64,000 bases of DNA from Halorhabdus sp. CBA1104 (GTDB lineage Archaea; Halobacteriota; Halobacteria; Halobacteriales; Haloarculaceae): the NCBI RefSeq assembly GCF_009690625.1, contig NZ_CP033878.1:1736001-1800000 (forward strand), written 5' to 3'. Shown here one piece after another: positions 7,247 through 50,674 of this stretch (its first letter is position 1; every line of letters begins with the position of its first letter). Position numbers and translations under genes: made by a program. The notes under the pieces are model-generated. The model saw only the letters and a program-made list of their open reading frames with translations, had not been told where the DNA came from and made no database searches.

Positions 7247-7999
7247 CTACTCGCGCAGCTCCTGCTGGCGTTGATCGATCATCTCTTCTTCGGTTTCCTG
7301 GCGCAACTCGTCGGCCTCCTCGACGAGTTCTTCGGCGCGTTCGTCCTCACCGACCTGTTCGTGGGCACGGGCCTTCTGTTCCAGCAGGTCCGCGCTCCGG
7401 AAGCCGAGTCTGACGGCATTGTCGAAGGCATCGATGGCGTCCTCGGCGAGCCCGCGTTCAAGCAGGAAAAAGCCGCGATTGTACCAGGCTTGGGCGAAGC
7501 GGGGGTCGATCTCGACGGCCCGTTCGGCGTGTTCTAAGGCCTGCTCGGACTGGCCGGATTCCCAGAGTGCGTAGGCGAGGTTCGTCTCCGCGGTCGCGGC
7601 GTGTTCGGACTCGGCGTCGATGTTCAACGCTTCCCGGTAGGCACCGATCGACGCGTCGTACTCCTCGAGTTCGGCGTGGGCGACACCCTTGTTCACCCAG
7701 GCCTCCTGGGTGATCGCGTCGTCGTCGGCAAAGCGAGCGGCCCGTTCGAGTGCCTCGGTGGCCTCCTCGAAGCGCTGGATGCGCGTGTACTCTAGGCCCA
7801 CGTCGAGTAAACTCTCGGCGTCGACTTCCTCGTCAGGGATCGCATGTTCGTCCAGTAGATCCCCGACTACCCGCGAGTCGACGGGATCGACCGCATCCGG
7901 ATCGACGGCGAGTTCAGGCGGTTCCAGATCGAAGCCCTCGTAGGGCTCTGAGAAGCCCTGGCCCTCGGAGAAACGATGGTCTTCGGAGTCGTCAGTCAT
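7247..7999 (-). CDS. Tetratricopeptide repeat protein
   Basis: A 250-residue acidic soluble protein. After an unstructured N-terminus of about 70 residues come four to five TPR helix pairs (for example AWVNKGVAHAELEEYDASIG, AQAWYNRGFFLLERGLAEDA), ending in a charged coiled-coil-like tail (EEADELRQETEEEMIDQRQQ). Such repeats mediate protein-protein contacts. A TATA-like AGCCCTTAACC (minus strand, ~8030) precedes the start by about 29 nt. First gene of the operon with DUF424; partners are unknown. Confidence 0.88.
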   Translation of the reverse strand: MTDDSEDHRFSEGQGFSEPYEGFDLEPPELAVDPDAVDPVDSRVVGDLLDEHAIPDEEVDAESLLDVGLEYTRIQRFEEATEALERAARFADDDAITQEAWVNKGVAHAELEEYDASIGAYREALNIDAESEHAATAETNLAYALWESGQSEQALEHAERAVEIDPRFAQAWYNRGFFLLERGLAEDAIDAFDNAVRLGFRSADLLEQKARAHEQVGEDERAEELVEEADELRQETEEEMIDQRQQELRE

Positions 8000-8084
8000 G
8001 AAACGGTCTACGCGAGTCGAATGGTTAAGGGCTACGTCCGCGCAGCGGCCGAATCATTTTGTACACCGGGCCGTAGTATAAACT

Positions 8085-8525
8085 ATGACGAACGACCGTG
8101 TGGCGGACCTGGTCGACGATGCTGTGGATGTGGAGGGAATCCGCCGATATCTGCGGAATTCGGACGTTCTCTTTGCGGTCCTGTTCGGCTCGCTCGTAAG
8201 CGACACGGCTCACGAATCTTCCGATGTCGACGTAGCACTCCAGTTTCCGGACGAGATGACGTCAAAAGAACGCTTTCGGCATCGAAATCGACTCGACGCC
8301 GAACTACAGACGTATGCCGAGCGATTCGTCGACGTGAGTGATATCGAAGCGCTACCAGTACCCGTTGCACGTGCGGCACTCCGGGATGGAATTCGACTCG
8401 TCGGTGATGAACAGGAGATTAACGCGTACCGCAAGCGGGTCGAATCCGAGTACGAGACGTCTGCTGAGCGACGAGAGCAGGAACGTCGAGAATTCATCGA
8501 TCGTCTGGCGAAAGGAGAGTTATAG
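8085..8525 (+). CDS. MNT-domain nucleotidyltransferase antitoxin (MntA-type)
   Basis: A 146-residue minimal nucleotidyltransferase with the signature G35-S36-x10-D47-V48-D49 (LFGSLVSDTAHESSDVDVAL). In type VII toxin-antitoxin modules such proteins neutralise the HepT RNase by AMPylating a tyrosine next to its active-site His. The C-terminal third is helical (RKRVESEYETSAERREQERR). Its stop codon directly abuts the start of the HepT gene, so both are made from one message. The pair lies just before the IS-disrupted thpR, in a stretch of accessory character. Confidence 0.88.
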   Translation: MTNDRVADLVDDAVDVEGIRRYLRNSDVLFAVLFGSLVSDTAHESSDVDVALQFPDEMTSKERFRHRNRLDAELQTYAERFVDVSDIEALPVPVARAALRDGIRLVGDEQEINAYRKRVESEYETSAERREQERREFIDRLAKGEL

Positions 8526-8954
8526 ATGGTCGACGAGGAAGTAGTCGTGACCAAGTTGGAACAGGTCAACGAATTTGCGCACGACCTCGAAGAGATGCGT
8601 GGGCTGTCGAAGGACCAGTACGTCTCGGATATCGTGATTCAGCGGGCGGTCGAGCGGACGTTCATGAATCTGATTCAGTCGTGCATCGACCTTGCCCAGC
8701 ATATTCGTGCCGCCGAGGATCTGACGGCGGCGCGGACATCGAAAGAAGAGATCGAAGCTCTCGGCAAAGAAGGCATCATCTCCGCCGAGACGCAAGAACG
8801 ACTCGAAGAAGCCGTCGGGTTCCGAAATGTACTCGCCCATCGGTATGGGGACGTAGATCACGAAACAGTGTACGAGGTACTTCATGAAGACCTGCACTGG
8901 TTCGAACAGTTTCAACAGGAAGTTGCCCAGTGGTTTCGCAAGCAGGAATCGTAA
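8526..8954 (+). CDS. HepT-like ribonuclease toxin (DUF86)
   Basis: A 142-residue all-helical HEPN protein with the R-x4-H-x-Y motif complete: R100, H105 and Y107 in GFRNVLAHRYGDVD. In characterised HepT/MntA pairs the Arg and His form the RNase site of a dimer, and the Tyr is the residue modified by MntA. Length and N-terminal helix fit DUF86. It begins at the nucleotide after the MntA stop codon. All key residues are intact, so the module appears functional. Confidence 0.88.
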   Translation: MVDEEVVVTKLEQVNEFAHDLEEMRGLSKDQYVSDIVIQRAVERTFMNLIQSCIDLAQHIRAAEDLTAARTSKEEIEALGKEGIISAETQERLEEAVGFRNVLAHRYGDVDHETVYEVLHEDLHWFEQFQQEVAQWFRKQES

Positions 8955-9026
8955 CAGTTCGGGCATGATGATTGACACAAACAAATCTGGTGTAACGCTG
9001 AAAAAGACAGCACTAGAGAAGGACGT

Positions 9027-42341: not shown

Positions 42342-43196
42342 TTAGGAGACGCGAGGGGAGACCATCACGGCGAAGACATAGACGATGAGAAAGCCCAAAC
42401 AATAGCCAAGCAGGTGACCGTAGAGATCGAAAATGGCGGCGTTACCGGCGGACGTTCGGTAAAACGCTAGAAACGGGAAGACGAACAAGACGCCCAATCC
42501 GATCACGGCAAGTTCGAAGTTGCCGTCGCCCCAACCATCGACGACGCTGCTCCAGGTCGGAACCCCCATCTCAGCCAGGAGTGAGCCGACGTAGAGCAAT
42601 CCACTGCCAGCCGACACGAGTGCGATTTCCCTCATCCAAGCCCAGGTTGGGATCGAGAGCACCGTGATCAGCGCGATCGTAAAGAACAGCAACGCTGGTG
42701 CATCTCGCTCCTGGAGCGTGCACGAGAGATGCGTACTCGTGTGGCTGACGACCATGAAACACAGCAATCCGACGAGCGCAGAGTTGAGGCCCGAAAAGCC
42801 AAACAGGATGCGCTCACGTGGGAAGACGAACTGCAAACCGGCCAACGCGAGCGGAAAGGCGACCAAAAACGTCACGAAGGCCCAGCGATACAACTGTCGC
42901 CGTCCTCCCGAGACACTCAGCACGTAACCGGTCGGCACAGCGAGAGCGTACAAGAGTAGATTGCCGAGCAAATGCTCGTAACTCAGGTGAACAAACGGTG
43001 CCGTGTACGCCGTCAGCAGTGTCGGATCCGAGACGGCGAACAACAGTTGCTCGCGGTAGTTCAGTGGGAGCGTAAAGACGGCGACGAGTGCGACCGGGAC
43101 CAGTCCCAGCAACGCGAAATCGATAGCGTGAGGGACGGACAGCGACCCCGCAGACGGCGGCCAACTACCGGGTAATCGCTGTCGGTTCTCCGCCAT
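42342..43196 (-). CDS. Rhomboid-like intramembrane serine protease
   Basis: A 284-residue polytopic protein with rhomboid features: FVHLSYEHLLGNLLLYALA (the HxxxN-type helix), the nucleophile Ser135 in LFGFSGLNSALVGL, and the catalytic His261 in DLYGHLLGYCLGFL. Seven to eight helices are visible. Rhomboids cleave membrane proteins within the bilayer. The start at 43196 (MAENRQRLPG) is preferred to the upstream ATG at 43325, whose extra residues look untranslated. Confidence 0.8.
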   Translation of the reverse strand: MAENRQRLPGSWPPSAGSLSVPHAIDFALLGLVPVALVAVFTLPLNYREQLLFAVSDPTLLTAYTAPFVHLSYEHLLGNLLLYALAVPTGYVLSVSGGRRQLYRWAFVTFLVAFPLALAGLQFVFPRERILFGFSGLNSALVGLLCFMVVSHTSTHLSCTLQERDAPALLFFTIALITVLSIPTWAWMREIALVSAGSGLLYVGSLLAEMGVPTWSSVVDGWGDGNFELAVIGLGVLFVFPFLAFYRTSAGNAAIFDLYGHLLGYCLGFLIVYVFAVMVSPRVS

Positions 43197-43412
43197 ACGA
43201 TGTGTTGGCTCGTCGGACGCTTGATGTTTACTCTCCGGTTTCAACAGCTGATAGACAACGCACTCGTCTCGAACAACCAACAGGGACCGGGACCAGCCGC
43301 TGTGTGAGAGTGTAAGTCGAGTCACGGCGGCGTGTGGTCACCCAGATCCACCACCCGCGGCTGGAGTTGGCCGTCCGATCTCCGTGGACTCACTGCTGAA
43401 GTCCGCCAAATG

Positions 43413-44552
43413 TTACCACAAGCGTTTGAGTCGAACCCACAACGGAACATCTCGATCAGTCCGGCGGTTGCGACGTTTTCGAACACCTAACAATCCGAAG
43501 ACAACGGTCAACACACCAAAGATCAACGTAGCGTTGATCGCCCAAAGCGCCAAGAGGGGGTGTACATTGTGCAGAGCAACGAGCAGGGACGGCGGGAGGA
43601 CGACGACGTACCGGCGTTCGGCAACAGACACGATCCGCTCTTCGCCCGGAGGCGGCGCGGCGACCGACAGCGTCGTCGAATCTCGCTCACCGCCCGGGAT
43701 ATCCAGCCATGGGTCCTGAAGTGCATCCTCTGCGGTAGCGTCGAAGACGACGAGCATCGTCACCATCGCGTCTTCGTTCGTGACAGTCATCTCGATGGTT
43801 GCCTGCTCGCCCGCGATAGCCTGGTTGCCGTTCACATCGTCGCCGATCGGAATATGATGTGTCGTATTCGGAAAGATCATCGCTGCGTTGGCCGGGATCA
43901 ACACGATGGCGAGAAAGAACAGTGCGGCAAACCGCGGATCGAACGCATCGATGGCACCCGAATGGGACCGTTCACGAGTCGAACGCGTTCCCAGACCGCT
44001 GAGCAGGCTCACGACGAACAAAAGAAGGCCGGAAGCCAGGAGTACCGAGCCGGCCTGCTGGGATTCATCGACGTTTTCGATGCCGAGGACAGTGGTCACG
44101 GCAGCCAAGATATTGGTGATGACGACGCGACCACCGAGAATGAGAGTCCCCAGAACGGGAATCGTGACGACGTGCCCGCCCGGTTGCCACGCGACGGCGA
44201 CGACCTGATCGTCCGTCACCGGCGGTTCACCGCCATCCTGATCGGTGAAGGGGTTGGCATCACCGCGTGTGATATAGCCATCGGCAGTTACGTCGACCAC
44301 GCGGTGGGTCGTCAATCCGCCGCCCTGGATCTCCTGGGCCTCGAAGACGACGACGTCGCCTTCTTGGATCTCACCCGCGACGAGTTCCGGAATCGCAACG
44401 AACCCATCCCCTTCGTCGATCGTCGGCGACATACTGCCGGAAGTCACGAAGCTCAGCAATATCGGCTGCCCGATGAGTGCACCCACGAGAAAGAGCACCA
44501 CCAAGACAAAGAGCAAAAAGCTCAGTGCCCTGACTACGTGGGTCCGGAGCAT
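43413..44552 (-). CDS. Signal peptidase I (archaeal S26B type) with long C-terminal extension
   Basis: A 379-residue membrane protein. Residues 1-150 are the peptidase: an N-terminal anchor (SFLLFVLVVLFLVGALIGQP), the nucleophile Ser40 in VTSGSMSPTIDEGDGF, His83 in TTHRVVDVT (the archaeal replacement of the bacterial Lys) and Asp98 in ITRGDANPF. The extension has a helix at ~165-190, another at ~208-228, an external domain (EQATIEMTVTNEDAMVTMLV) and a last helix before a basic tail. Extensions of this kind are absent from housekeeping signal peptidases. It heads a block of exported proteins and is probably their dedicated processing enzyme, like SipW. Confidence 0.87.
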   Translation of the reverse strand: MLRTHVVRALSFLLFVLVVLFLVGALIGQPILLSFVTSGSMSPTIDEGDGFVAIPELVAGEIQEGDVVVFEAQEIQGGGLTTHRVVDVTADGYITRGDANPFTDQDGGEPPVTDDQVVAVAWQPGGHVVTIPVLGTLILGGRVVITNILAAVTTVLGIENVDESQQAGSVLLASGLLLFVVSLLSGLGTRSTRERSHSGAIDAFDPRFAALFFLAIVLIPANAAMIFPNTTHHIPIGDDVNGNQAIAGEQATIEMTVTNEDAMVTMLVVFDATAEDALQDPWLDIPGGERDSTTLSVAAPPPGEERIVSVAERRYVVVLPPSLLVALHNVHPLLALWAINATLIFGVLTVVFGLLGVRKRRNRRTDRDVPLWVRLKRLW

Positions 44553-44643
44553 GCGTCGTCTCGAGTATACACGACGAGTACTAAAGCAGTGTTGTTCAGC
44601 CCGTCGTCACCAATTACCTCGTGATCAACCGAGGCGTGGGTTG

Positions 44644-45813
44644 TCAGCTGTCGGGCGCTCGATCGACGTATTCGCCTTCGATATCGGGCAGACGTCGATT
44701 GCCAAGCACGGCCCCGAGCCCGATCGAGCCGATCAGTATGGTCAGGAACAGCGCCCTCCCTTCGAGCCCTAGCGTCGAAAGCCCGACCATCGCCGCGAGT
44801 GTGACGACGGCGACGGTCAACCAGAGCAGTCCCAGGCGGAAGAAGACGTACCTGGCCCGTGACTGGCGGCTTTCCGGCGACGTTTCCAGCAGCGGGCGGA
44901 CATCGCGAGCCCGCGTCTGGACGAGATAATCGACGGTAACGGTAAGGACGGCCGCGAGCAGCAGCCAGCCGTACCAGGGGAAGAAGAACGTCCCGAAGTC
45001 GATCGGGAAGCCACCCGGGAACAACGTCGCCGAGCCAGCCGGAGCAGGACCCACTTCGGTGTCCTCGATGCTACCGTCTGCATCACCATCAGCCGTCTCA
45101 GTCTCTCCACCACTGTCACCAGTTCCACCCTCTCCACCACTGTCACCAGTTCCACCCTCTCCATCACTGTCACCAGTTCCACTCTCTCCACCACTGTCAC
45201 CAGTTCCACTCTCTCCACCACTGTCACCAGTTCCACTCTCTCCACCACTGTCACCAGTTCCACCCTCTCCACCACCGTCGCCATCGCCTCCACCACCGAT
45301 TCCGCTCTCCTGTTCGTCTTCTTGGGCAGAGTCGGGGAGCGTCATTCGATAGGTCACGGTCTCCGTGAGCGAGTCGAATGCGCCAGAGTCAACGGTAGCA
45401 ACGACACCGAGGGTCGCAGATTCGCCGGGTTCGAGAGTTAGTGCCGACGTGGGATCGTCGACCTGCTGGCGGGTCGTCGTATCCGTTCTGACGAGTTCCA
45501 GCCGGTCGCTATCGTGCTCGATCCACACCTCGGCAGCCTGATCGCTGTCAGGGGTACCCTCGTAGCCGATGACGAACACGTCGTCGTAAGTAGTCCTCGC
45601 TCCCGAAAACCCGGTCAGTGAGACAAAAAGGTCACCGTCAGCGTCGAAGCGAGTATACTGCTCACCGTTGGGGGTGTCAGCAGGGGCAAGGAGAACGCCA
45701 GTGTCCGCATCCGGTTCGAGTTCGTCAGCCTGGCCCGAAAACGGCACCGCACCCGTGGCTATGATCGTCCCGGTGGCGATCAAGACGAGCGCGAGGGTGA
45801 GTGAACGGTTCAT
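44644..45813 (-). CDS. Exported membrane-anchored protein with 9-residue tandem repeats
   Basis: A 389-residue protein: a signal helix (LTLALVLIATGTIIATGAVP), an external beta domain (~30-165, SGARTTYDDVFVIGYEG), a low-complexity stretch of seven 9-residue units like GGESGTGDS (~177-240), and two or three C-terminal helices (YGWLLLAAVLTVTVDYLVQT; LGLLWLTVAVVTLAAMVGLS). The first 30 mature residues (DADTGVLLAPAD) resemble those of DUF1102 proteins nearby. The start at 45813 begins the signal peptide. The repeat region is a flexible wall spacer or glycosylation site in many surface proteins. Confidence 0.78.
   Translation of the reverse strand: MNRSLTLALVLIATGTIIATGAVPFSGQADELEPDADTGVLLAPADTPNGEQYTRFDADGDLFVSLTGFSGARTTYDDVFVIGYEGTPDSDQAAEVWIEHDSDRLELVRTDTTTRQQVDDPTSALTLEPGESATLGVVATVDSGAFDSLTETVTYRMTLPDSAQEDEQESGIGGGGDGDGGGEGGTGDSGGESGTGDSGGESGTGDSGGESGTGDSDGEGGTGDSGGEGGTGDSGGETETADGDADGSIEDTEVGPAPAGSATLFPGGFPIDFGTFFFPWYGWLLLAAVLTVTVDYLVQTRARDVRPLLETSPESRQSRARYVFFRLGLLWLTVAVVTLAAMVGLSTLGLEGRALFLTILIGSIGLGAVLGNRRLPDIEGEYVDRAPDS
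45103..45282 (-). repeat. 27-bp tandem repeat inside an exported-protein gene
   Basis: Six to seven near-identical units of 27 bp (plus-strand form CCACCACTGTCACCAGTTCC plus seven more bases) encode GG(E/D)(S/G)GTGDS. Units differ by one or two bases. It is a coding minisatellite that can expand or shrink in whole codons, not a CRISPR array. Confidence 0.9.
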
Positions 45814-45879
45814 CTCCGAAAGTGGGTCTGGACTGCACCAGTCGCATCGAATCAACTTCGAGTGGACGGCGAGGCGTCG

Positions 45880-46437
45880 TCAGGCGCCGGTGTAATCACT
45901 CTGACGGGCCGCAAACACGATCGAATTGATCGAGTCGATGGCGGCCCCAGTGTCGGCTTGCAGGTCGACGACTACCGTCAGATTGCGGCTACTTCCGGAA
46001 GCAAGATCGACAGCGTTGTCTCCCGTAGTGGAGCCGTCGACGATCGAGGCGCCGTCGTGTTGAATATCCAGAACACTCCCGATGAGGCCGTTCGAATCGT
46101 CACTCTCGTCGGGGTTGACAGACAGCCCCACGTCCTTCTCGCCGCTATTTGTTACCTTGAGAGCATCGGTAAACGTGGTTGTCGCCTTCTCGTTGAGGTC
46201 CGTTTGCTGAATTTTGATCAACGAGTTGCCGTTCGGACTTTCAGTCGTAATGATGTTGTTGCCAGTTCCCGGGTTGTTTGGCTCAAAACTCAACAATGCA
46301 TCCGAATCCGCTGAGGTGTTCAGTTCGACCGTCCGCGTCGCTTCCACGGAGGAGAACGCGCCGGAACCGAACGCGCCGCCAACAGCAGCGGCAGCCGTGC
46401 CAAGTCCAAGGAGGACAGACCGTCTGTTTAGTTTCAT
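45880..46437 (-). CDS. DUF1102-type exported protein
   Basis: A 185-residue protein. The N-terminus MKLNRRSVLLGLGTAAAAVGG has a twin-arginine-like pair and a hydrophobic run, then GSGAFSSVEATR, after which the mature part starts in DUF1102 proteins. The mature domain is beta-rich and acidic (TSADSDALLSFEPN, FTDALKVTNSGEKDVGLSVN, LASGSSRNLTVVVDLQ). There is no C-terminal anchor. Archaeal DUF1102 proteins resemble the TasA/camelysin fold of fibre-forming matrix proteins; a fibre role here is inferred. It shares a divergent promoter region with a second member. Confidence 0.82.
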   Translation of the reverse strand: MKLNRRSVLLGLGTAAAAVGGAFGSGAFSSVEATRTVELNTSADSDALLSFEPNNPGTGNNIITTESPNGNSLIKIQQTDLNEKATTTFTDALKVTNSGEKDVGLSVNPDESDDSNGLIGSVLDIQHDGASIVDGSTTGDNAVDLASGSSRNLTVVVDLQADTGAAIDSINSIVFAARQSDYTGA

Positions 46438-46469
46438 GTTACGCTCCGTATCCGTACGTGCACGCCGCC

Positions 46470-46563
46470 GTACTTACTAATGACCCTCTTGAGAGCGATA
46501 ATGCTGGTCGTTAGCTGCTCAAGCCCACCCTGAAGACGGCTAAGGCACCGGTATAGTAAGTAC
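46470..46563. promoter_or_regulatory. Shared promoter element as inverted copies between two DUF1102-type genes
   Basis: GTACTTACTA at 46470-46479 and its exact reverse complement TAGTAAGTAC at 46554-46563 face the two divergent genes. Each copy reads TAGTAAGTAC toward its gene, 33-42 nt from the minus-strand start and 50-59 nt from the plus-strand start. This suggests one transcription factor or a common core promoter drives both. Confidence 0.5.
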
Positions 46564-46612
46564 CCCGGACCCTATCAATCTGCCAAGGCACTGACGACGT
46601 GCTTGATAACTC

Positions 46613-47251
46613 ATGGGTATGAATCGTCGGAACGTACTGACGGCAATGGGTGGATTGGCAATCGGCGGCGGCGCACTGTTCGGTTCGGGTGCGTTCACCT
46701 CCGTGGAAGCAACTCGAGCGGTGGAAGTGAACATCTTCGGCAGCGGTGACGATGGACCGACTGGGGTCGTCGAGAATCCGGACGCCAGTGAAGAGACCGA
46801 TATTGCAGAGACGATCACGAACAACGGCGTCGACGTACTCGTCGATCCCTCGTCGGATTCGATTTCCCTCCGTGCGCCAGACGACACGGAGTACACAGAC
46901 GGAACCTCATTGTTCCCGACCGAGGACGACACCTACACGTCCGTTGATAGTAGCTACGTGAGCCTCGTCGCTAACGACGTGACGATCGTCTTCGGCGCGA
47001 ACGGGGGTCTCCCACCGAACTCCACGCTCGGATACAGCGAGTTCTTCGCGTTCGTGCCAAACAGTACGAGCACGAGTTTCGACGTCACGTTCAGTGGACC
47101 GGGAGAGCTCCTCACCAAAGTCGGGAATGGGGATGTCAGCAGCGGTTCGTCCGTTGCAGTCAACGCAGCCGGAACCAAAGATGCGACAGTCAAAACCGGG
47201 ACGACGGATGCAGACACCGAAGACCTCAATATTTCGATTGAAGAAAGCTAA
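46613..47251 (+). CDS. DUF1102-like exported protein
   Basis: A 212-residue protein with the same leader type as its divergent neighbour: MGMNRRNVLTAMGGLAIGGG, then GSGAFTSVEATRAVEVNI. The mature part is acidic and beta-rich (VSLVANDVTIVFGANGGLPP, FVPNSTSTSFDVTFSGPGEL) with several N-x-S/T sequons. A second ATG at 46619 is possible. No anchor follows, so it is probably secreted or assembled. It is a likely second subunit of the same surface structure. Confidence 0.78.
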   Translation: MGMNRRNVLTAMGGLAIGGGALFGSGAFTSVEATRAVEVNIFGSGDDGPTGVVENPDASEETDIAETITNNGVDVLVDPSSDSISLRAPDDTEYTDGTSLFPTEDDTYTSVDSSYVSLVANDVTIVFGANGGLPPNSTLGYSEFFAFVPNSTSTSFDVTFSGPGELLTKVGNGDVSSGSSVAVNAAGTKDATVKTGTTDADTEDLNISIEES

Positions 47252-47546
47252 GGCAGGACGTCGGCACTACACGACGGACAGCCAGCTTTTTTGCGGGCGT
47301 GACTGACGCGAGACGGTCTGGCGAGGCCAGCGAAAATCACAGCGATAGCAACGCAACGTTGGGACCGCGTGTCGAGAGCCAGCCGCCCACGGAAGGGCCG
47401 TGGAGCGAAATAGTGTTGACCCGCTCATTCAGCAATGCCTAGAATGGCAGTTGGACCTAGAAGGACGGTCTCCGCTATGGGATAAAACAACACGTTTCAA
47501 CAAAGGATACAAACTGTTTTAGTTTTACAAGCCGAAGTGAAACCCG

Positions 47547-48113
47547 ATGGTTGCAAGTGCGACCGATGGAACCCAGCAAACAGACAGTGCCTTATCGCGT
47601 GACGAGGCATTCGATCTGTTGAGTAATCATCGCCGTCGGTACGCGCTGCACGCAGTCAAGCAAACCGAAGAGTCGGTCGAACTAGCCGAGATCGCAGAGA
47701 AGGTCGCGGCCTGGGAGAACGACAAAGACCGGAAAGACGTGACCTCGACAGAGCGCCATCGTGTCTACACGTCGTTACAACAGACCCACTTGCCGACGAT
47801 GGACCGAGCGGGTGTCATCGACTTCGACAACGGGACCGTGACGCTCACGGCCCAGGCTGAAGCTCTCGACATCTACATGGACGTCGTCCCGGAAGATTCG
47901 ATCCCCTGGGGGCAGTATTATCTGGGGCTTGCGGCGCTATCGAGTGGGCTAGTCGCTGGGGCCTGGGCGGGCGTCTTCCCGTCGAGCATCCCCGATCTCG
48001 CGTGGGCCATCCTCGTGATCGTCCTGCTTGCCGGTTCCGCGCTGTATCACGTCTGGCAGAGCCGACAGTTCCGCGTGGGTGTCGGTGAGCAACCACCGGA
48101 GATCGATCGATGA
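47547..48113 (+). CDS. Winged-helix membrane regulator (DUF7344-like)
   Basis: A 188-residue protein. Residues 15-110 match the haloarchaeal pattern ALSRDEAFDLLSNHRRRYAL, SVELAEIAEKVAAWENDKD, RHRVYTSLQQTHLPTMDRAG, IDFDNGTVTLTAQAEAL, a winged helix. Two C-terminal helices follow (YYLGLAALSSGLVAGAWAGV; LAWAILVIVLLAGSALYHVW). It may regulate the surrounding cassette from the membrane. Its TGA overlaps the ATG of the LamG gene, so the two are coupled. Confidence 0.78.
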   Translation: MVASATDGTQQTDSALSRDEAFDLLSNHRRRYALHAVKQTEESVELAEIAEKVAAWENDKDRKDVTSTERHRVYTSLQQTHLPTMDRAGVIDFDNGTVTLTAQAEALDIYMDVVPEDSIPWGQYYLGLAALSSGLVAGAWAGVFPSSIPDLAWAILVIVLLAGSALYHVWQSRQFRVGVGEQPPEIDR

Positions 48114-49246
48114 GCAAAAAGTGGACGCGCCGGGGAGCGCTCGCGTTAATCGGCAGCGGCGCAAGCATGCTAATCTGGGGGACTAGCGGATTCACGATGG
48201 TCGAAAGCGAGCGAGACAGTACCCTCGGTACTGCTGCTGATTCGGAGGCGCTGTTGGGTATTGCTGGCCCCGAAACAGTGACGGGAGTTCCAGGCCAAAC
48301 CGTGACACTACGAACGCTGACCAACAACTTCGACCAACCGCTGACGGACATTCAGGTCAGTCCTCGTTCGGAATCACCGTTCGAAACGATGCAGACACCG
48401 AACACGCTGCAGTCGGGTGAGAACGGCGATGTGACAACGACGCTCTCCTGTGACTCAGGGGGAGATAGTACTGTCACACTCGATATCACTGCGACGGGCA
48501 ACGACCAGGGAGTCGAGTTGAGCCGGTCGGTTTCAGTCCAGTGTCGCGACCCCAGGGTGTCGTGGTGGCACTTCGAGGACATAAGTGGCACTTCTGTCCC
48601 AGATTCGTGGGCTGGCAGCAACGATGGCGAGCGAGACGATGTTGGGAGATTGTATCCGGCTTACGAACCAGACCTAGTGACATCACAGCAGGGCCGCGGC
48701 GAAGTGCTCAATTTCGATGGTGACGACGTCGTCACCGTTCCCGACAACGATACGCTCGACCTGACTGACGACTTCTCGCTCTCTGCCTGGGTATATCCCC
48801 GAAGCCAAGATGGTCTCACGCGACTGTTCAGCAAGTGGAACTCGCGTGGGGACGATAGCTATCAATTGGGCTTCGGTGGCGGTTGGCAAAGCTCTGGCAA
48901 CAGGGAGCTGCTCATCGAGACCACCGACGAGTACAAACTCACAGGTGTCTCGCTGACGGAGAACCAGTGGGCACACGTCGTGTGGACCCACGGATCAGAA
49001 GATAAGGTGTACGCCAACGGAACACAGAAAGGACCGACGTTTTCCCTTCCTGATGCGGAAGCATCCACGCAGCCGCTTCGAATCGGCAACGGTCTCAACT
49101 CTAGGCGGAACGCTGTCTACGGGTTCGACGGGGTAATGGACGAACCCAAGGTGTACGACGCCGCGCTCACTGTCGACCAGGTGAGCAATCTCTACGATTC
49201 GAGCACGGCGAGCGAAGGCGGTGGTGGCGGCGATATCACTGGCTGA
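48110..49246 (+). CDS. Exported LamG-domain protein
   Basis: A 378-residue protein. The leader (SKKWTRRGALALIGSGASML) has twin arginines and is followed by TSGFTMVESERD and TAADSEALLGI, the same mature start seen in the DUF1102 proteins. Residues ~55-140 form a beta domain (PGQTVTLRTLTNNFDQPLTD). Residues ~150-360 are a concanavalin-like LamG domain (VSWWHFEDISGTSVPDSWAG, LSAWVYPRSQDGLTRLFSKW, NGVMDEPKVYDAAL-like end), probably binding glycans. It ends in a Gly-rich tail without an anchor. It is translated with the DUF7344-like gene. Confidence 0.85.
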   Translation: MSKKWTRRGALALIGSGASMLIWGTSGFTMVESERDSTLGTAADSEALLGIAGPETVTGVPGQTVTLRTLTNNFDQPLTDIQVSPRSESPFETMQTPNTLQSGENGDVTTTLSCDSGGDSTVTLDITATGNDQGVELSRSVSVQCRDPRVSWWHFEDISGTSVPDSWAGSNDGERDDVGRLYPAYEPDLVTSQQGRGEVLNFDGDDVVTVPDNDTLDLTDDFSLSAWVYPRSQDGLTRLFSKWNSRGDDSYQLGFGGGWQSSGNRELLIETTDEYKLTGVSLTENQWAHVVWTHGSEDKVYANGTQKGPTFSLPDAEASTQPLRIGNGLNSRRNAVYGFDGVMDEPKVYDAALTVDQVSNLYDSSTASEGGGGGDITG

Positions 49247-49456
49247 GCCCACGATCACGCCCAAGCAAGCGGCGTACTGCCGCTCCAGTAGGGCCAACCG
49301 AGCCCGGCACTACGCACACCTAGTTTCGCCGATCGAAAGGGGAAGCGGAGCGAGAGGTACCAGAGCAAGTGGAGAAACTGAGCGAATCAGCGATCAGGAA
49401 ACACTTTCAGTCCGGATACAAATGACCTGATATATGACGGGAGAGCGTGCAACGAC

Positions 49457-50674
49457 ATGAGAGGACCGGATATCCCGCTCTCCGTGCGTTCGTTTCTCGA
49501 TAGCTGGCTGTCGGTGATATTGCTGGGACTGGTCGTGTTATCGCTCGTCGGTGGCTACATCACCTACGACGCATACGTCGATGGTGGACAGACAGTAATC
49601 GAAGAAAAACCAGTCGGAACCTGGACGGTCGACAGTAACTTCGAACACAGTGCGACGGTCCAGCGTGAGACGACCGTCTTCGAGGCGGGTGAACGACTCG
49701 ACAACCGGCCACTGTACTTTACGACCGCGATGTCGGAACTCGATGTGACGTATGCGATCACACACGACAACACAGCGGGCAAGTCGGCTGAAGCAGCAGT
49801 CGAACTGCGGTTGGTTAGCAGATCGGTCGAAGAGGCCGACGATGAGACAGTCGTCCACTGGGAATCGAGCGAGAAATTGGCGACCGTGACCGGGGTCGAG
49901 ATAGCCAACGGCAACACCAAGACTGAGACGGTAAGTATAGATATTCCGACTATTCGATCCCGCATCGAGACCATCGAAGAAGATCTCGAAGCCTCACCCG
50001 GCGAGACCGAGGTACTGGTCGTCGCCGATGCCGAGATCGAGTCTTCGGTAGGGGGCGAGCAGTTCACCGAGTCCCGGACAGACCGTCTCGAAGTGACGCC
50101 TGGCGAGAGTGTATATCGAGTAACGACGACAGCCCAGGACCAGCGAGTCTACGAGGCAACCGAACAGATCCAGCGAACGACCGATCCACCGGCCGTGGCG
50201 CGGTTTGGGGGCCCACTCGTGGTACTCGTCGGGCTCGTCGGGATGCTTGTACTCGTGGCCGTCCATCGGGCAGGCAAAGTCAGGCTTACCGAGCGCGAAC
50301 GGACGCGACACACGTTCGAAACGGACCGAAGAGACTTCGACGAGTGGATATCGAACGTCAGCATTCCGGATCCCGGAGAGCGGACGGTCACCACCGCAGA
50401 GACGCTCGCCGATCTAGTCGACATTGCCATCGACAGCGACAGGCGAGTACTCGAAGACGGCGAGCAGTATGCAGTCCTCGTCGGCGATATGATGTACACC
50501 TATAGGGCACCGAAGCCAGCCGATCCACTGACAAGCGAAAGACAGCGGGGGACAGTCCCGGCAGCCGATCACAACCTAGAGGACACTGACCCGACAGCGA
50601 CCGCCGAGACCAGTGACACAACGCAGCCGTCCGAGCAAAGCGGAACGTCTTCGGAGAGCGACCGAGAGACGTGA
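49457..50674 (+). CDS. DUF5305-type membrane protein
   Basis: A 405-residue protein: an N-terminal helix (SWLSVILLGLVVLSLVGGYI), a large external beta domain (~45-250; GTWTVDSNFEHSATVQRETT, LYFTTAMSELDVTYAITHDN), a second helix (PLVVLVGLVGMLVLVAVHRA) and a cytoplasmic domain with an acidic Ser/Thr-rich end. This is the layout of haloarchaeal DUF5305 proteins, which commonly accompany S26B signal peptidases and DUF1102 proteins. It may act as an assembly or anchoring partner for the exported subunits. Confidence 0.78.
   Translation: MRGPDIPLSVRSFLDSWLSVILLGLVVLSLVGGYITYDAYVDGGQTVIEEKPVGTWTVDSNFEHSATVQRETTVFEAGERLDNRPLYFTTAMSELDVTYAITHDNTAGKSAEAAVELRLVSRSVEEADDETVVHWESSEKLATVTGVEIANGNTKTETVSIDIPTIRSRIETIEEDLEASPGETEVLVVADAEIESSVGGEQFTESRTDRLEVTPGESVYRVTTTAQDQRVYEATEQIQRTTDPPAVARFGGPLVVLVGLVGMLVLVAVHRAGKVRLTERERTRHTFETDRRDFDEWISNVSIPDPGERTVTTAETLADLVDIAIDSDRRVLEDGEQYAVLVGDMMYTYRAPKPADPLTSERQRGTVPAADHNLEDTDPTATAETSDTTQPSEQSGTSSESDRET

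Follow-up and report, generated by a model that had tools for sequence, protein, structure and literature searches.

A probable Tat-fimbriae (tafi) gene cluster in Halorhabdus sp. CBA1104 and the signal peptidase, DUF5305, and DUF7344 genes linked to it

Seven neighboring genes of the haloarchaeon Halorhabdus sp. CBA1104 encode a signal peptidase, exported proteins, and a predicted membrane-bound regulator, which raises the question of what kind of surface structure, if any, they build together. They lie at positions 43413 to 50674 of a 64,000-nucleotide stretch of contig NZ_CP033878.1 (positions 1,736,001 to 1,800,000, referred to here as the window). A sequence-only reading of this DNA proposed a dedicated fiber or matrix system, following the logic of bacterial SipW-TapA-TasA fibers and archaeal bundling pili and little described in haloarchaea. 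The seven open reading frames that it listed are real genes and form one cluster, and this cluster very probably encodes Tat-fimbriae (tafi; Tat, twin-arginine translocation), a thin surface pilus of haloarchaea of an already published kind. Tat-fimbriae were reportedly described in haloarchaea by Galeva et al. in 2025 (iScience 28:111793). With that publication and a solved pilus structure (PDB 9P0A), the claim of novelty has been wrong since 2025; the earlier interpretation is partly supported, correct as to the type of system but outdated as to its newness.

The assignment relies on NCBIfam models for the tafi proteins. TafA (46613..47251, plus strand), a Tat-exported pilin and the presumed major subunit, scores 222.3 bits against NF052520 (cut-off, 190); it is named the core component of tafi in a paper that cites Galeva et al. 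2025 (PMC12687288). The Tat-exported LamG protein TafC (48110..49246, plus strand) scores 527.7 bits against NF052521 (cut-off, 410), and the Tat-exported pilin or adapter TafE (45880..46437, minus strand) scores 210.3 bits against NF052522 (cut-off, 155). TafF, the presumed base or anchor (44644..45813, minus strand), matches NF052523 and adjoins TafE, the position that it also occupies in other taf clusters. The label DUF1102, which had been attached to TafE and TafA, is not borne out by the Pfam search (no match at E ≤ 1), and no mention of DUF1102 was found in the literature searched. As TafA has no Pfam match even at that threshold, Pfam alone misses the tafi system.

The link to a known structure is provided primarily by TafE. 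PDB entry 9P0A, released on 2025-07-23 under the title “Structure of Natrinema sp. J7-2 Tafi pilus,” contains a pilin that is homologous to TafE over most of its length (profile E, 2.2e-31; single-sequence E, 2e-13); the TafA profile matches the same pilin (E, 6e-18) in the N-terminal third only. The predicted structure of TafE also has 9P0A as its top fold match (Foldseek E, 1.4e-3; Z, 9.5 over 123 residues, 2.8 Å), with the Pyrobaculum bundling pilus 7UEG in second place (Z, 8.5) and the Sulfolobus thread 7PNB at rank 6 (Z, 6.8). As far as this comparison goes, the TafE fold is thus related to those of archaeal donor-strand pili, as the fiber hypothesis had anticipated.

Several observations weigh against the tafi assignment. 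The match of TafF to its model is full-length (E, 3.2e-100), but its score of 336 bits falls below the cut-off of 420. The TafE model has a mean predicted local distance difference test score (pLDDT) of just 65, below that of the TafA model, so the sequence match to 9P0A outweighs the fold match. The fold matches of the TafA model (pLDDT, 77) reach just Z 5 to 6 and include unrelated immunoglobulin (Ig)-like folds; among its listed Foldseek matches, Streptococcus pilins come first and FimA lower, none has an E value below 0.001, and 9P0A is absent. Given this middling model without 9P0A among its listed matches, the fold argument rests on TafE. Finally, for Halorhabdus sp. CBA1104 itself, the evidence for tafi consists of gene sequences.

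The N-terminal regions of the subunits suggest how they could be exported, cleaved, and assembled. The twin-arginine pair is invariant in 24 TafA and 17 TafE homologs, and TafC orthologs carry a conserved KKWTRR Tat signal. In the 24 TafA homologs, R5R6 and G26A27 are invariant and F28 almost so; R5R6 and G26A27F28 are all invariant in the TafE set (17 sequences) and in a 17-sequence TafA set. The mutual alignment of TafA and TafE is confined to residues 1 to 44, which comprise the signal and ∼17 residues at the start of the mature protein; the first mature stretch is modeled as a strand in the predicted structures of both (residues 35 to 42 in TafA and 33 to 41 in TafE). The N-terminal donor strands of Bacillus TasA and TapA, which serve in donor-strand complementation, are likewise similar to each other (PMC9674648), and a strand common to the otherwise unlike TafA and TafE is what donor-strand complementation would lead one to expect. 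Fold alignments with the TafE model begin past the first strand, at chain residues 43 (9P0A), 39 (7UEG), and 38 (7PNB), which is consistent with donation of the N-terminal strand in all three filaments. In 9P0A, 188 of the 215 deposited residues are ordered, as would be expected of a mature protein beginning near residue 28, although gaps elsewhere are possible.

TafF corresponds to the repeat-bearing anchored exoprotein of the sequence-only reading, with its start moved to the conserved MNR at 45813, which is likelier than the TTG at 45855. Its predicted architecture comprises a signal of the general secretory (Sec) type, a pilin-like exodomain alignable to TafE (hhalign E, 1.7e-5), a low-complexity Gly/Ser/Asp spacer, and three C-terminal membrane segments, a combination that would suit a base role. 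The spacer is encoded by a 27-bp tandem array (45103-45283; 6.7 copies, 96% identity) and differs in length and composition among the orthologs.

The signal peptidase (43413..44552, minus strand) belongs, as had been suggested, to the S26B type (Ser-His, endoplasmic reticulum [ER]/archaeal), scoring above the cut-off of TIGR02228, and matches the SipW model weakly (E, 8.6e-10); 12 homologs all retain its catalytic residues S40, H83, and D98. The added C-terminal part noted earlier extends ∼240 residues past the catalytic core and includes three more predicted membrane regions as well as an exposed domain (residues ∼229 to 329). The second S26 gene of this genome is located elsewhere, outside the cluster. 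In Bacillus, SipW, an ER-type Ser-His peptidase, cuts TasA so as to leave Phe at position 2 of the mature protein (PMC10269814). From the SipW-like Ser-His type of the enzyme and the conserved G-A-F near the site, we infer that the cluster peptidase cuts TafA and TafE at G-A-F.

The three remaining products of the seven are encoded on the plus strand, and their description held up. The membrane-anchored winged-helix regulator (47547..48113; PF24035 [DUF7344], E 6e-29 in the Pfam search) has two predicted membrane segments, both C-terminal (residues 126 to 144 and 151 to 169), and its gene overlaps by 4 bp that of TafC, whose LamG domain is recognized by Pfam as Laminin_G_3 (E, 5e-23). The DUF5305 protein (49457..50674; PF17231, E 1e-54) is predicted to consist of two membrane segments (residues 10 to 37 and 251 to 269) with an exposed beta domain between them and a cytoplasmic tail. 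As the C-terminal part of the peptidase also has an exposed domain between membrane segments, the two were compared; profile comparison detected no homology.

The divergent tafE and tafA genes are separated by a promoter region (46438..46612) that contains an inverted pair of GCTAAnG-N6-WDTA elements, at 46499-46515 on the minus strand and 46539-46555 on the plus strand, each oriented with its TATA-like part toward the respective gene. These elements are conserved in 12 orthologous intergenic regions. Conservation is seen in the corresponding intervals of Haloarcula, Haloferax, Halorubrum, and Halovenus. In the 2.63-Mb genome, there are three exact copies of the pattern, two of them being those in the tafE/tafA interval (the reversed pattern occurs 17 times); the third copy, at 2371112, is near two unrelated open reading frames, one peptidase-like and the other without a known function, and probably arose by chance. 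When a looser form, GCT[A/C]AnG, was counted in 23 orthologous loci, 34 sites were found in 6.1 kb inside the interval versus 12 in 352.5 kb outside it, a ratio that overstates the independent evidence, since the pattern was derived from some of the same, related loci. Counting over the whole genome gives the cleaner control. The DUF7344 protein is a natural candidate for the binder of these elements.

How far the accessory genes follow the pilins was assessed in haloarchaeal genomes. Strict TafA, i.e., scoring above the cut-off, is present in 22 of 292 genomes; 219 have some similarity to TafA at E ≤ 0.001, which in most of the listed cases covers just the signal at the N terminus and the strand that follows, and DUF5305 is present in 239. 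No TafA relative was found in viral contigs. In a sample of 41 loci (the window plus 40 picked for a TafA-like protein), 40 encode the peptidase, 39 the DUF7344 regulator, and 33 DUF5305; 16 have the full set of seven families. A locus of Haloarcula amylolytica (L082) and one of Haloferax larsenii (L078) each carry the full set. A second sample was not picked on Taf proteins and comprised 20 DUF5305 loci from 20 other genomes, nearly all of different genera, drawn from the better-scoring DUF5305 matches and hence not random. Here, the peptidase gene is found within the same ∼16.6-kb stretch at 19 of the 20 loci, a Taf-like exported protein at 17 (one of them weak), and the regulator at 11. With about two S26 genes per ∼3-Mb genome, chance would be expected to place one near DUF5305 at an estimated one locus per hundred, so the linkage of the peptidase and DUF5305 is far beyond chance. 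The co-occurrence of these families in other genomes, which the fiber hypothesis required, is thus observed, and the peptidase, DUF5305, and DUF7344 are linked in a wider range of haloarchaea than that with strict TafA.

Two variants were seen in these samples. A DUF5305 gene at 7599-8975 of locus L113 is the sole one of the 20 with neither a peptidase nor a Taf-like gene nearby. A second cluster type is found at loci L059 to L072 (e.g., L065, L068, and L072), from genomes of other families: DUF5305 adjoins the peptidase, the regulator lies on the other side, there is at least one Taf-like pilin, and TafF is not detected. It is this type that the solved pilin of 9P0A most closely resembles.

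Taken together, these features suggest the following mechanism. TafA, TafE, and TafC would leave the cell folded via the Tat route, and the membrane S26B peptidase would trim their signal peptides near the invariant G-A-F, as a counterpart of SipW acting on TasA. The subunits probably link by lending each other their N-terminal strands, with TafA as the presumed main subunit, TafE as an adapter, TafC presumably at the tip or in an adhesive role, for which its LamG domain is suited, and TafF as a membrane base. DUF5305 could be a membrane assembly partner, help with assembly being a guess both for it and for the extra domain of the peptidase. The DUF7344 protein is the likely regulator, perhaps acting through the inverted GCTAA elements. 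A broader reading is that the peptidase, DUF5305, and DUF7344 form the conserved core of Tat-routed donor-strand pili in most haloarchaea, the peptidase being dedicated to G-A-F on folded Tat cargo and DUF7344 switching the tafE and tafA promoters via the paired elements; we regard it as tentative, with the balance leaning somewhat against it.

On this view of the cluster as tafi, the genome would join those of tafi producers, and a full gene list for the system is obtained. The peptidase, DUF5305, and DUF7344, which follow the pilins across haloarchaea, become candidates for processing, assembly, and control, respectively. If the peptidase is indeed dedicated, the cutting of folded Tat pilins by a SipW-like enzyme would be the archaeal equivalent of the TasA pathway, with a different export route. 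Three findings appear worth keeping: these three families are linked, TafA and TafE have an N-terminal strand in common, and the promoter region contains a paired element. The system shares with the haloarchaeal tafi of Galeva et al. and the Natrinema sp. J7-2 pilus (9P0A) the TafA, TafC, TafE, and (below its cut-off) TafF families, the Tat signals, and the homology of TafE to the solved pilin, but belongs to another genus, and gene order varies: the peptidase gene is downstream of tafF here and beyond tafC in the H. amylolytica locus.

Could the locus instead encode a TasA-type biofilm-matrix fiber proper, with TasA and TapA orthologs cleaved by a SipW ortholog and a role in the matrix instead of in a pilus? 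An S26B peptidase with an intact Ser-His catalytic apparatus is encoded beside the subunit genes and weakly matches SipW, a Phe is found next to the cleavage region as in TasA (PMC10269814), and the archaeal bundling pili, whose representative 7UEG is the second-best fold match of TafE, have been termed TasA-like (PMC9674648). The resemblance to the TapA-SipW-TasA system of Bacillus subtilis thus covers a dedicated ER-type peptidase and a presumed N-terminal donor strand common to two subunit types. However, none of the seven proteins matches a TasA/camelysin Pfam family at E ≤ 1, the subunits use Tat and not Sec, the regulator is different, LamG, DUF5305, and membrane-anchored TafF are added, and the closest homolog is annotated as a pilus. 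Among the structure matches listed for the TafA and TafE models, TasA is absent and the TasA-like 7UEG is present, which points neither way. The proposed logic of a dedicated fiber system is supported by the family models, 9P0A, and the co-occurrence of the families in other genomes, but direct kinship with TasA could not be shown and the sequence family link is undetectable; a TasA fiber proper is unlikely. A cassette of envelope adhesins or sensors, whose exported proteins would work individually (LamG as a binder, DUF5305 and the peptidase as receptors) and form no polymer, would agree with the overlap of the regulator and LamG genes and with the several exported proteins of varied lengths at related loci. 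It is very unlikely: that such proteins polymerize is evident from the names of the families and from the solved Tafi pilus formed by the homolog, and the conserved strand shared by TafA and TafE also argues against it.

Haloarchaeal surface filaments are mostly of the type IV pilus or archaellum kind. A variant of either is nevertheless extremely improbable here: the proteins have twin-arginine signals with a G-A-F site, not class III signals, the peptidase is of the S26B type, and the cluster contains no ATPase or platform gene. The Ig-like pilin fold is shared with the archaeal donor-strand filaments 7UEG and 7PNB (PMC9715654, PMC9674648), but identity is ∼10%, the thread subunit is Sec-exported (PMC9715654), and no shared gene cluster has been shown. 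Chaperone-usher pili also have an Ig-like subunit with a donor strand, and the fold similarity to FimA is modest (Z up to 4.9 for the TafA model and 5.8 for the TafE model), but the archaeal cell has one membrane, and Pfam and NCBIfam detected no usher or periplasmic chaperone family in the cluster.

Judged by its TafA and DUF5305 counts, the Halorhabdus sp. CBA1104 genome carries one such cluster. Directly downstream of the peptidase gene and on the same strand, positions 42342-43325 encode a rhomboid-family membrane protease (PF01694; E, 3e-6).

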